From positions 4,340,001 to 4,404,000 of the forward strand of contig OY725489.1 in assembly GCA_963281255.1 (NCBI GenBank): DNA of 64,000 nucleotides. The letters are read 5' to 3'. Source of the stretch: Aphrocallistes beatrix (Eukaryota > Porifera > Hexactinellida > Sceptrulophora > Aphrocallistidae). Both the position numbers and the translations under genes were made by a program. Below the pieces are notes generated by a model. The model saw only the letters and a program-made list of their open reading frames with translations. It was not told the DNA's origin and ran no database searches. This document shows positions 9,023-40,918 of this stretch, one piece after another; position 1 is the first letter of the stretch, and each line of letters begins with the position of its first letter.

Positions 9023-9267
9023 CTATCGTTTCTGTAGTAGCATGCCACCATTAGAATAGTATGATATGCTTGTTTGCTCATTTATACTACAATAAATATC
9101 TATGCATTAATCTAGCCCAGGGAATTTGAAACTGCGTCACTAATATTAAAAATATCGGACATACCGGTAGAAAAACAGTCAATAATAGTTTCGAAATTTT
9201 GAAAAGTACGTATATCATTATTAACCCCATGGGGATCCAAAATATTCTCACAATAGAGAGAGAGTCA
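9023..9267 (+). repeat. 3' flank of Mutator-like copy M1 (left of the mariner)
   Basis: Non-coding DNA following the transposase stop. Its reverse complement is found in pieces at 41080-40919 and 38281-38241, then at 36126-36010. The shared words include gacgcagtttcaaattccct (as the complement) and tattgactgttttt. It therefore belongs to the transposon, not to the host. The mariner at 9270-10599 interrupts it. Confidence 0.7.
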
Positions 9268-35479: not shown

Positions 35480-36126
35480 GAATACCTTCATTGTATGACG
35501 GTGTTGAACGCACGTCTGCGTGATCTTGGAAAACTAGTAAAACTATTATCATAAAATTTAATCATATTTTCACACCTTTTTATGTAAACTTGTATTTTCT
35601 GCTAGAAAAGAAGTCTCAACGGCTAATAAGCCTTTATTGCAATTTAGTAAAAGTAATTTCGATATTCGCACTTGTAAAATGTTGATAACAAAATTCAAAG
35701 GCGAAATAGCCAAGGAATTATCTAAGAGCGCCATACGCTCCTTTAGGCGTATTATTTTAAGCCTCAGTGTTTATGAGCGTAAAAATTCAGAAAAATATCC
35801 AATTTACCCAATATTATAATGTTAATTAGTGATTTAGGCGTATGAAAATTTAGAAATTTTAGATCTGGAAGGCTGTATAATACCTTGGTAATAGCATACA
35901 TATATCAATATGTACAGTCATGGTCGCTTATTATGAACAAAACCTCTGGGTCCAAATTTGACCGGTTCTATAGAATTTCGATTATTTCGATTTCGCTTAC
36001 TATGTATGTCTCTATCTCTCTCTCCCTCTATTGTCTCTCTATTGTGAAAAGATTTTGGATCCCCTTGGGGTTCATATTGATATGCGACCCTGACTGTATT
36101 TTCCAATTTCGATACTACGCGTATTA
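35480..36126 (-). repeat. Mutator-like 3' flank, copy M3, first part
   Basis: Reverse complement of the M1 flank. It matches 10930-10602 and then 9267-9195, continuous here where M1 has the mariner. Landmarks are gacggtgttgaacgcacgtc, gaccggttctatagaatttc and ttttggatccccttggggtt. It breaks at TTA (36124-36126) where the CACWG element begins. Confidence 0.75.
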
Positions 36127-38240
36127 CACAGGCCAACAAAACATATTTTTGTCTCTTGGCTCAGATTGTTGGAGCGTTTTTGGGGTATATTGGGGTTGCT
36201 GAATCCGAAAATATTATTAGTTTACTGAATTGGCTCTAGTTTTATAGATATTACACAACCTTAAATTTTGAGATAAGATACAAATATATGCGATTTGTAT
36301 GTTTATTACAACCTTTACATCTATTTGTTCACTCTATTTCCAGCATATTAGAACCTTCCATGGATTCAAAACGCATTAGACGTTGTTGCCTCAATGATCC
36401 TGATGTCTTTTGCTATATTTGTGGTGAATATATGGCAAATGAACATCGTTTTAATGTTAGAGATGTCACCAAAAAAGCTTATCAAGCTTACTTTGGTATG
36501 AAGTTAGGCGATCAGGATAAGTCATGGAGCCCTCACAAAGTGTGCAAGTATTGCACAGAAACCCTCCGCTTATGGACACAAGGAAAAGCCAAATCCATGA
36601 AGTTTGGGATACCAATGGTTTAGCGAGAGCCCAAGAACCATCACGATGACTGTTACTTCTGCATGGTTAACATGTCTGGATGGAACCGAAAGAAGAATAA
36701 TTCGTGGCAATATCCTGACATAGATTCTGCAAGACGGACAATTCCACACTGCAGCGAAATTCAGGTGCCTGTTTTTACGTCCTTACTTGATCTAGTTCCT
36801 GATACTGCGTTTACTCAGGCTATTGATGAATCGTCGGACAGCACTTACAGCAGCAATAGCTGTATTGAGCCTTTCACACAAAGGCAGCTCAATGACTTAG
36901 TGAACACCATGTTCTCCACAGTGAAGCTATGATAACTTACTACCGACGCAGAGACGAAGAACTTATCCGCTATTTCAGTAAAGAAGGCGATTTCGTGTTT
37001 TGTATTAACATCCCAGGACTTCTCTCAGCGATGGGACTTTCCCAATACAATCCGAATGAGTGGCGTTTATTTATCGACAGCTCTAAACGGAGTTTGAAGT
37101 GTGTGTTGCTGCATAATGGTAACAAGTTTGCCTGTGTTCCGATCGGCCATTCAGTAATCTTGAAAGAGCACTACGCAACTGTAAAGATGGTCCTACAAAA
37201 GCTGTGTTATGATGAACATAACTGGATCGCGTGTGTGGACTTGAAAATGGTTAACATTCTGTTAGGACAGCAAAGTGGTTACACTAAATACCCATGCTTT
37301 GTTTGTTTGTGGGACAGCAGAGCGGTTGAGGTGCACTGGGAAAAGAAGAACTGGCCCGTTCGTCAAGAGCTCGCCGTGGGGGAAAAGAATATCGTTAACG
37401 AGCCACTAGTTAGCCGTGACCGTATCATCCTACCCCCACTACATATCAAGTTGGGACTGATGAAACAATTCGTAAAGGCATTGAACAAAGATGGTACCTG
37501 TTTCAGCTACCTCTGCTCAGTATATCCTGGTCTGAGTAGCGAAAAACTTAAGGCAGGAATTTTTGATGGGCCACAAATCAGAAAACTGATAAAAGATGAA
37601 GATTTCGCCTCACACATGACTGGGGTAGAAGCTGCCGCGTGGTATTCCGTTGTCGATGTTGTAAAGGGATTTCTAGGCAACACCAAAGTAGCTAACTACC
37701 AGAATCTGGTCGAAGGCATGCTCAAGAACTTCCACAGTCTGGGAACCAGAATGAGCATAAAACTTCACTACCTCTATAGCCATTTAGAGAGATTCCATGA
37801 AAATCTTGGTGATTTAAGCGAAGAACAGGGCGAGCGATTCCACCAAGACATCAGGACTATGGAGGAACGGTACCAAGGACGATGGGACGCTCACATGCTG
37901 TCAGATTACTGCTGGAGCCTTATGCGTGATTGCGCCCTGGAACCTCACAAGAGGAAATCGTATAAGAGAACGTTTGTTCATGATTGATAAGTATTCAGAT
38001 CATATTAATCTCAAATTATCTGCTTATTATGTACGTTCAATTCTAATTATAAGGTAATACATACATGCATATATACTATCAGTGAACACGATTCACGGAT
38101 ACTGAAAAACACATAATTTTACAATATCACAAAAAGTAGAGCCAATTGACCAGAACTAGTGCCATTTTCGAACTCAGTGACCCCGATATACCCTAGAAAT
38201 AGTCTCAACTTATCAGCCAAGAAAATGTTGTTGGCCAGTG
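36127..38240 (+). mobile_element. CACWG-ended DNA transposon, 2114 bp, TTA target duplication
   Basis: The left end is CACAGGCCAACA and the right end is the inverse of CACTGGCCAACA. The similarity of the two ends continues, with gaps, for about 120 bp (gggtatattggggttgctga and inverse). TTA flanks both sides (36124-36126 and 38241-38243). The M1 copy carries the empty site, with a single TTA in ctaTTAttgactg (complement of 9173-9186). Termini starting CACTG/CACAG with a 3-bp duplication are the EnSpm/CACTA signature. The encoded protein, however, belongs to a widespread but unclassified family, so the superfamily is open. Confidence 0.85.
36360..37987 (+). pseudogene. Transposase-like protein of unclassified family, broken
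   Basis: Begins MDSKRIRRCCLNDPDVFCYI. Residues 10-90 hold a cysteine-rich zinc-binding region (CCLNDPDVFCYICGEY, then KVCKYCTETL). A TAG at 36619 stands where tryptophan would give MVWREPKNH. The same frame then continues with a second pair, CYFC. At about 36925 the frame changes and a short segment seems missing. From 36929 a 352-codon open frame follows: GDFVFCINIPGLL, FIDSSKRSLKCVLLHNG, CVDLKMVNILLGQQSG with CFVCLWDSR, LPPLHIKLGLMKQFVKAL, and EEQGERFHQDIRTMEERYQG. This order of conserved acidic residues suggests an RNase H-like DDE/DDD core. I recall the family as abundant uncharacterised proteins of many invertebrates. The element ends found here are the best clue to its role. Confidence 0.7.
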
Positions 38241-38281
38241 TTATTGACTGTTTTTGTGGTGCTTTTCTATCGGTATGTCGA
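38241..38281 (-). repeat. Mutator-like 3' flank, copy M3, second part
   Basis: ttattgactgtttttgtgg...cggtatgtcga corresponds to the complement of about 9160-9190. It is bounded on the left by the CACWG element and on the right by the hAT element. The last 8 bp are the hAT target duplication. Confidence 0.7.
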
Positions 38282-40918
38282 CATGGGCGTAGCCATGGGG
38301 GCCTGAGGGGGCCTTGCCCCCCCAAAACTTTCACTCGGCCTCCCCAAAATTTCTACCTTAAACATTGTAATGACTAATGTCCTTCGTTGAGAACAAAGAG
38401 ACACGTTATTCCATCACTTACCAATCTTCGAGGATGAAAATCCTTACCATTCAATGTTGATAACATACGTATTGATTTACATATATAATTATTACTTGTA
38501 TAGCTTATTTATGATGGAGAGAAAACGAGAGAGTGATAATTCGAAAACGATGAGCGTCATAGTGATGTGACAGGTTCTATGAATAAAACTAGTGCGAAAG
38601 GATGTCAACCTTTATTTAGCTCAAATTTGAGTGGAAGTGATGCCTCACTACCGAGCGATTTGTCTGGTAAAGATGAAAGCAAAGTTGTACCAGATAAAGC
38701 GTTCCAGTTTCCAATGAAAGCTATCAGAGGGAAACTTCGCTCTTGTGCTCATCATTGGTTTCAGGACTATACTTGGTTGGAGTACAGCGTAGAGAGGGAT
38801 GCAGTGTTCTGTAAGCCTTGTCGCCACTTTAGCAGTACTTCAAAGTCTGGAGATCACGATGGTGTCTTTACACTTGCTGGATTCTCGAATTGGAAGAAAA
38901 TGAATGAGAAATTGGAGAAACATCAAGGATCAAATGTTCATCGGAACAGTGTGGTGAAATCAATGTCATATAGTATAACACCACTAAACTTGTTATATCT
39001 GGCACAATCTCTGAACAGCTCACATGTGAAACAAACATTGAGCTACGAAAGCTAATTACTGGTGATCAAGGGCATTTGGAGTTCGTCATTGATCTTATTC
39101 TCCTTCATGTACGGCAAGATCTTCCCCTACGTGGACATTATGAAGGACTTCCAGATGAGGATTCAAAGAGTAACCGTGGGAACTTCCTTGAGCTCCATGA
39201 CTTTCTATTAAAGTATTCTCCCCTCGTAAAGTCTGCATATGACAGAGCTACATATAAAATGCTATCTCCTACAGTACAGAACAAAATCCTTATGGCTGCT
39301 GAAAATGTGGGACTTCAAATGATTAAAGATGAGTTAGGTGATGGTAAGTACGCAATCCTCTCAGATGCTACAAGGAATGGGGCCCACAAAGAAGTTGAAG
39401 CAGTGGTACTCCGTTATCTACATAACAAGTGTTTATACGAAAGGACAGTAGGTATGGTTGACATATCTAAAGATCAGACTGCTCAGGGGATAGCAATAGC
39501 GATACAGGAAATTATATCACCAATTGAACTGAACCCGTCCCAATGTGTTGGTTTTTCTTTCGATGGAGCATCAGTAATGTCGGGTCCTAAGGGGGGCGTG
39601 CAGGCGATCTTGAAAAAGTATTACCAAAATGCTATATTTGTTCATTGCCATTCACATCGGCTAAATCTAGTCTTGCAAGAGGTTTCATCACTCTGTACTG
39701 AAGTTGGCGACTGTCTTGCTATGTGTAATAAAATGTCTGTTTTCTTCAGTCATCCAAAACGTTTGTCTTTACTTAAGCAGAAACAAGCTGAGTATAGGCC
39801 AGATAAACAACCAGTTGGACTCACAAACGCAGGTGATACACGTTGGTCATCATACGCAGTGTCTGTAACTAAAGTGTACTTGTTACTTGAACCTATATTT
39901 GCAGCGCTTGAAGACCTGAGCGATATGATGCAGGCGAGAGTAGAGGCAGAAGGCATCCTCCATCTGATGCGATGTAAAAAGTTCATATTTGTGTTGTTTA
40001 TGCTCTCTAAAGTATTAGATTCCTGTGAAATAACGACCAAAGCTCTACAGGCCCCATCCCAAACCATAGGTAATGTGAGTGACCATGTATTTGCATTGAA
40101 AGATACCCTAAAACTGTTTCATTCTGAAGAACATTTTCAAAGTGTTCTTGCACTGAGTATCCAAGTTTGTACAGCCTACGAAATCGATTTGTATGATTCA
40201 TGTTCCAAGCGAGTTAAAAGAACCCCTCAAATATTAGTAGACACTCATATTACTTCGACCAAAGGGCAAAGGAGGAGAGTGAGCTGTGACGAGGACTTAC
40301 AACGAATATACTATGAAGCGATCGATATCATAATGGGAGAGCTTAACCTACGATTCCAGCCCGAAGCTCTTGACCTCTACAACGTTTCTAGGCAAATTAC
40401 TCAGATGCAAGACTTCTCGGGTGCGAATTTCGCAATTAGGGTAGGAATATCGATATCAGATTCAGAACAGATGTTATTTCAAGGACTGTGCAAGAGGAAA
40501 CTACCAGAAAGTTCTGATCTCACGATGTACTTAGATATATGCAACCCAGATATCTTTCCAAGTGTCTATCAGTTGTTAACTAGTATTATAGTCTGTCCGA
40601 TATCTTCAGTATCAGTTGAGCGTCTATTCTCCACACTGAAGCGAATTCATGCACCAATTCGTCGATCAATGGGGACAGAGAGACTAAACCAGTTGTGTTT
40701 TCTATCATTAGAGACTGATCTTACAAGGAGAATGCAGACTGCCCCAGGTCTAGTGGTCACCGCACTAAAGAAACTTTATTCGTCATAGATTTTCAGATTT
40801 GCAAAAATTCTATAATTTAGTAAATAAATCACTTTAAAACTTGAAATTTGATCTAAATAATGGCCCCCCCTAAAATATATCCAGCCCCCCCAAATAATAT
40901 TTGTTCGCTACGCCCATG
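38282..40918 (+). mobile_element. hAT element, 2637 bp, complete ends
   Basis: The ends are CATGGGCGTAGC and its inverse GCTACGCCCATG, with C-rich tracts just inside (tgcccccccaaaac and ccagcccccccaaa). TATGTCGA is duplicated exactly at 38274-38281 and 40919-40926, the 8 bp expected of hAT. The insertion is in Mutator-like copy M3. The gene inside is nearly intact, so the insertion is young compared with its host repeat. Confidence 0.95.
38567..40788 (+). pseudogene. hAT transposase with ZMYM/TTF-type finger, one frameshift
   Basis: A transposase of the DUF4371/hAT type. The first part (38567-39055) contains a TTF-type zinc finger (DYTWLEYSVERDAVFCKPCRHF) and the following HRNSVVKSM segment. 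The frame shifts by one base near 39050. The rest (about 39055-40788) is open for more than 570 codons. It begins around GDQGHLEFVIDL, then QDLPLRGHYEG, catalytic YAILSDATRNGAH and FSFDGASVMSG, HCHSHRLNLVLQ, and ends with the hAT dimerisation region SVSVERLFSTLKRIHAPIR. The start is uncertain: an upstream ATG at 38513 reads MERKRESDNSKT in another frame, suggesting a second small indel before 38567. Close to functional. Confidence 0.87.

Follow-up and report, generated by a model that had tools for sequence, protein, structure and literature searches.

A decayed copy of a DNA transposon, very probably of the Chapaev3 group, in the hexactinellid sponge Aphrocallistes beatrix

The window analysed here is a 64,000-nucleotide stretch of Aphrocallistes beatrix contig OY725489.1 (assembly GCA_963281255.1, positions 4,340,001 to 4,404,000). 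At 36127..38240 (+), the window holds a DNA transposon of the cut-and-paste type, a worn copy of an element of 2.2 kb whose single gene encodes a transposase of about 570 aa, and, based on the published description of Chapaev3, the element very probably belongs to that group. Since the ends, target site duplication and protein motifs agree with published Chapaev3, the window family is a new family of an already named group and not a new superfamily. The original prediction of a CACTA-related (CMC) transposon of the DDE type with CAC ends and a 3-bp TWA duplication is supported; its view of the family as unclassified, either a distinct lineage or a new superfamily, is not, as the features that could be compared match Chapaev3. 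The group was first described in Repbase Reports in 2008, as cited in passages of PMC4411706, and is treated as a sublineage of Chapaev in the relevant part of PMC12730594.

Structure of the Window Element

The element is 2,114 bp long, has CAC...GTG inverted ends, starts with CACAGGCCAACA, ends with the inverse of CACTGGCCAACA, and is flanked by TTA on both sides (36124..36126 and 38241..38243). The ends and the flanking TTA had been predicted at exactly these positions. The 5′ terminal inverted repeat extends over 36127..36260 (+) and the 3′ one over 38116..38240 (−), the inner limits of both being approximate. The two ends, for which a similarity of about 120 bp had been proposed, form a gapped pairing of about 130 bp, and the local score of this pairing is 53 as compared with a maximum of 25 in 300 shuffles. 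Frames of a hAT-type transposase adjoin the element at 38579-40788 of the window, with a Dimer_Tnp_hAT match (E-value, 2.5 × 10−8) in the frame at 39259-40788.

The gene previously placed at 36360-37987 turned out not to be one open frame in the window, as it contains a stop codon in frame and then shifts to another frame, with a loss of about 13 residues. Residues 1-192 of an unbroken relative are found in one frame of the window (with the stop), and residues 206-568 in another. Frame comparison and alignment assign the N-terminal transposase remains, including CxxC pairs and the stop, to 36360..36911 (+), and the catalytic part to a 352-aa open frame at 36929..37987 (+). In the unbroken copies, the transposase is encoded in one uninterrupted frame. 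A complete frame (568/592 aa) is present in two of the 16 compared elements, L018 and L019, and L022, which misses the 5′ tip, has a frame of 592 aa.

Two N-terminal CxxC pairs align in all five of the sequences that reach this region, and L018, L033 and L047 have a further CxxC near the start, the one in L047 not being in register. This part of the protein is perhaps the Chapa zinc region; the corresponding passages of PMC4411706 report Chapa as a complex zinc finger that occurs in Chapaev and Chapaev3 as well as N-terminally in RAG1.

Genomic Copies and Target Sites

The genome (100.5 Mb) was searched with the first 234 bp and the last 256 bp of the element, as well as with the 352-aa frame. 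The first 234 bp gave 29 matches: 22 copies at 87–100% identity (the window included), two distant ones at 72–77%, and five inner pieces of copies already counted. The last 256 bp yielded 37 matches, of which 19 are to the 3′ end of copies and 18, in inverted orientation, to 5′ ends, and the 352-aa frame matched 122 pieces, many of which are fragments. In total, 24 copies were examined, the window copy and 23 fetched ones (L009-L031). Both ends were in reach in 17 of them; in L009, L010, L022, L023, L026, L030 and L031 they were not.

The tabulated flanks reveal a perfect 3-bp duplication in 16 of the 17 two-ended copies (TAA in 10, TTA in five and CTA in one), so that 15 of the 17 carry TWA. 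The next 3 bp outward, which served as a control, agree in only one copy out of 17. The single copy without a perfect duplication is L027, with flanks ATT/TTA. The base before the duplication is A in 14 copies and the base after it is T in 16, both holding in 14 of the 17. The same 30 bases precede the CTA insertion in L023 (contig C27) and L025 (contig C2), and, therefore, C27, a short contig, is probably a duplicate of part of C2.

The full-length copies measure 2.18–2.20 kb. The length-wide comparison, which took 16 of the 17 two-ended elements (L029/L032 left out), gave identities of 88.1–99.9%. L018 and L019, both full-length and 99.9% identical, are located at separate sites and have perfect duplications, which suggests recent movement.

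The window insertion sits inside a host repeat, other copies of which show the empty site. When the joined flanks were used as a query, at least 41 genomic matches were obtained, at least 37 of them crossing the junction (a lower bound, the best candidates alone having been scored); among the remaining scored matches, two are the window's own flanks and two cover one part. In the two empty sites that were aligned, TTA occurs once, within TATTATTGACTG; 6 bases found beside the window insertion are absent from both of them. The window itself contains a repeat copy with an empty site and one TTA, noticed in the original prediction and now aligned at 9171..9261 (−) with 76% identity and gaps.

Conserved Motifs of the Transposase

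The order of motifs in the window protein is D, D, C(2)C, LH, H(4)H, E, and it is identical in a second, divergent family of the same genome described below. Across the two-family alignment, 45 columns are identical (columns with letters in at least five rows), including D50, D104, C123, C126, H172, H280, H285 and E302 in the numbering of the 352-aa frame. D50 (FIDSS; 37076..37078, +), D104 (CVDLK; 37238..37240, +) and E302 (GERFH; 37832..37834, +), which had been put forward as an acidic triad, are identical in both families, and remain the candidate first, second and third catalytic acids, respectively. Between the second and third of these residues lie the C(2)C motif (C123 and C126; 37295..37306, +), the LH motif (H172; 37439..37444, +) and the H(4)H motif (H280 and H285; 37766..37783, +). 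All three are listed for Chapaev in passages of PMC4079192, and C(2)C also in those of PMC12730594.

The spacing from D104 is +19 to C123 and +22 to C126, whereas H280 and H285 are +5 apart and E302 follows H285 at +17. The CMC/CMCT branch that holds Chapaev also holds Transib and RAG1, the latter being the antibody-gene recombinase and a distant cousin of Chapaev3. Based on the residues listed for mouse RAG1 in part of PMC4914335 (D708, C727, C730, H937 and H942), the D-to-C (+19/+22) and H-to-H (+5) distances are equal in RAG1 and the window protein, whereas the distance from the last H to E is +20 in RAG1. A C(2)C and an H(3-4)H located between the second D and E are shared with Transib and RAG1 and, according to the relevant passage of PMC12730594, are common to CMCT as a whole; the 5-bp duplication of Transib/RAG1 (PMC8355894) differs from the 3 bp observed here.

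Single-sequence AlphaFold2 modelling of the 352-aa frame gave a mean pLDDT of 37.8, which is too poor for fold assignment. In this low-confidence model, a strand (46-49) directly precedes D50, followed by strands 58-63 and 66-71, a helix (82-92), and a strand (100-102) directly before D104, after which helices prevail; its RNase H-like look was given no weight. PDB profile searches with E-values up to 10 found no RAG1 or Transib chain. One profile had no matches, and the four matches of another (E-values, 0.39–2.3) were all to unrelated proteins. No relatives were found in viral contigs, prokaryote genome contigs (GTDB), plasmids or phages.

Related Families and Look-Alike Repeats

The second family (L040-L047) shares only 21–25% identity with the window protein (three members aligned), and the profile match between the two families has a probability of 98.6 and an E-value of 5.1 × 10−16 over 329 columns. 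Homology between its copies stops at CACGGGTG...CACCCGTG, giving CAC/GTG ends. A 4-bp duplication is present in three of the four two-ended copies (ATCC in L043, AAGT in L044 and GATC in L046, where the reading takes the first base of the element as changed), whereas no duplication is seen in L041, the fourth; the reading covered just the 3′ end in L042 and L045, and L040 and L047 were left out. A 4-bp duplication is typical of Chapaev proper. For Chapaev as a whole, passages of PMC4079192 give duplications of 3 to 4 bp. The L040-L047 family fits Chapaev proper: like the window family, it has CAC/GTG ends, the catalytic and zinc motifs, and the N-terminal CxxC pairs, whereas it differs in its larger elements (about 3.9 kb; 4.6 kb in L046), in frames of up to 769 aa and in the 4-bp duplications. 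In two of these Chapaev-type genes, L042:1-990 and L045:942-1711, the N-terminal part is enlarged by an in-frame 24-bp tandem array (TQLVVERA repeated), which counts about 41 copies in the former, where it runs to the edge of the locus, and 32 in the latter; the unit is single in L041, L044 and L046, and present as a variant in L047.

In a more distant subfamily, the two ends are not alike, one being CACAACACAACAAGAT and the other the inverse of CACAGGTCAACAAA. Four of its seven two-ended copies are flanked by TTA/TTA, and three (L033, L038, L056) have mismatched flanks. Short relatives with the ends CACAACACAACAAGAT / CACAGGTCAACAAA, namely, L065 and L067 (309-310 bp, TTA duplication) and L056 (260 bp, mismatch), are likely non-autonomous.

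With up to two mismatches allowed, the end pattern occurs at 107 places in the genome, as compared with 26 for the reversed control. Among the matches listed, those reading TAACACAGGCCCAGAAAA were not accepted as relatives, since the four inspected have a longer common flank GCATGCACTAA, and, for this reason, the TAA beside them is not a duplication. A dispersed repeat that contains GCATGCACTAACACAGGCCCAGAAAA (L052-L055 and others among the matches listed) mimics the transposon end but is a different repeat, with constant flanks in the four copies inspected.

Classification and Alternative Assignments

According to the relevant passages of PMC4079192, Chapaev3 elements have TWA duplications always between A and T and contain C(2)C, LH and H(4)H, and most families consist of a single exon; for Chapaev as a whole, CAC/GTG ends are stated there, and Garfield, a Chapaev3 element of 2,289 bp, has a transposase of 556 aa. 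The window family shows CAC...GTG termini with inverted repeats, a TWA duplication that in most copies is preceded by A and followed by T, and the same three motifs together with DDE. With Merrow, Garfield and Conan as described in those passages, it also shares a size of about 2.2–2.3 kb, 556-592 aa and, with most families, the single exon. The observed exceptions are that A and T flank the duplication as a strong preference and not always, and that there is one CTA copy and one copy without a matching duplication. In addition, Merrow and Garfield have two exons in that account, unlike the one uninterrupted frame found here, and the likeness as a whole was judged by description. The 17 residues from H(4)H to E (20 in RAG1), the PDB profile searches without a RAG1 or Transib chain and the poor structure model also count against the assignment.

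That the family instead split off deeply as a sister to the known Chapaev3, present beside Chapaev proper in one compact genome and including a subfamily with unlike ends (CACAACACAACAAG, CACAGGTCAACAAA), is considered improbable. Still less credit is given to the assignment originally envisaged, to an animal lineage of EnSpm/CACTA proper or to a CMC lineage that is new and stands beside Chapaev3. Such an assignment would draw on the CAC ends, the shortness of the duplications and C(2)C/H(3-4)H, all common to the whole of CMC in the literature passages cited above, and on the fact that the fit to Chapaev3 was judged from descriptions; it is opposed by the TWA duplication in ATWAT, the size, the single frame and the motifs, which fit the Chapaev3 description as given in those passages. 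Furthermore, no match to Transposase_21 (PF02992), the EnSpm/CACTA Tnp2 type, was found in the scanned proteins. The genome-wide Transposase_21 search, in which the control was without a match as well, says nothing on absence. In the Pfam scans, no family exceeded the cut-off for the transposase, and the weak matches to FYVE (E-value, 0.0098; below cut-off), zf-AD (4.2 and 0.74) and STI1-HOP_DP (0.18) are not claimed.

The TWA duplication is found in many PIF/Harbinger elements. The canonical 3-bp Harbinger duplications (passage in PMC12730594) likewise agree with the TWA observed here, but the C(2)C/LH/H(4)H motifs and CAC ends indicate CMC and no Harbinger-type Pfam match was obtained in the proteins scanned, which makes this affiliation exceedingly unlikely. 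Kyakuja-Dileera-Zisupton (KDZ), to which nothing points beyond general DDE resemblance, is just as implausible, given the 8-bp duplications stated for Zisupton in part of PMC12730594, as opposed to 3 bp here, and the absence of a Pfam match above the cut-off.

For an element of the Chapaev3 group, the N-terminal zinc region would presumably help to bind the inverted ends of about 130 bp, and the DDE core, in which C(2)C and H(4)H would form a zinc site, would presumably cut at CAC/GTG. The same core would presumably insert the element into ATWAT targets, the two strands being staggered by 3 bp, and so give rise to the TWA duplication. Zinc binding, catalysis and the order of cuts are proposed by analogy with relatives; the ends, duplication, target preference, empty sites, unbroken-frame copies and conserved motifs that form the basis of this scheme are observed.

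Thus, a family that could be read as an uncharacterised repeated protein, with no matching Pfam model, is placeable by its ends, duplication and motifs. If it were, after all, a deeply branching sister of the known Chapaev3, it would help to order the origin of the 3-bp versus 4-bp stagger and of the RAG1-type zinc region.
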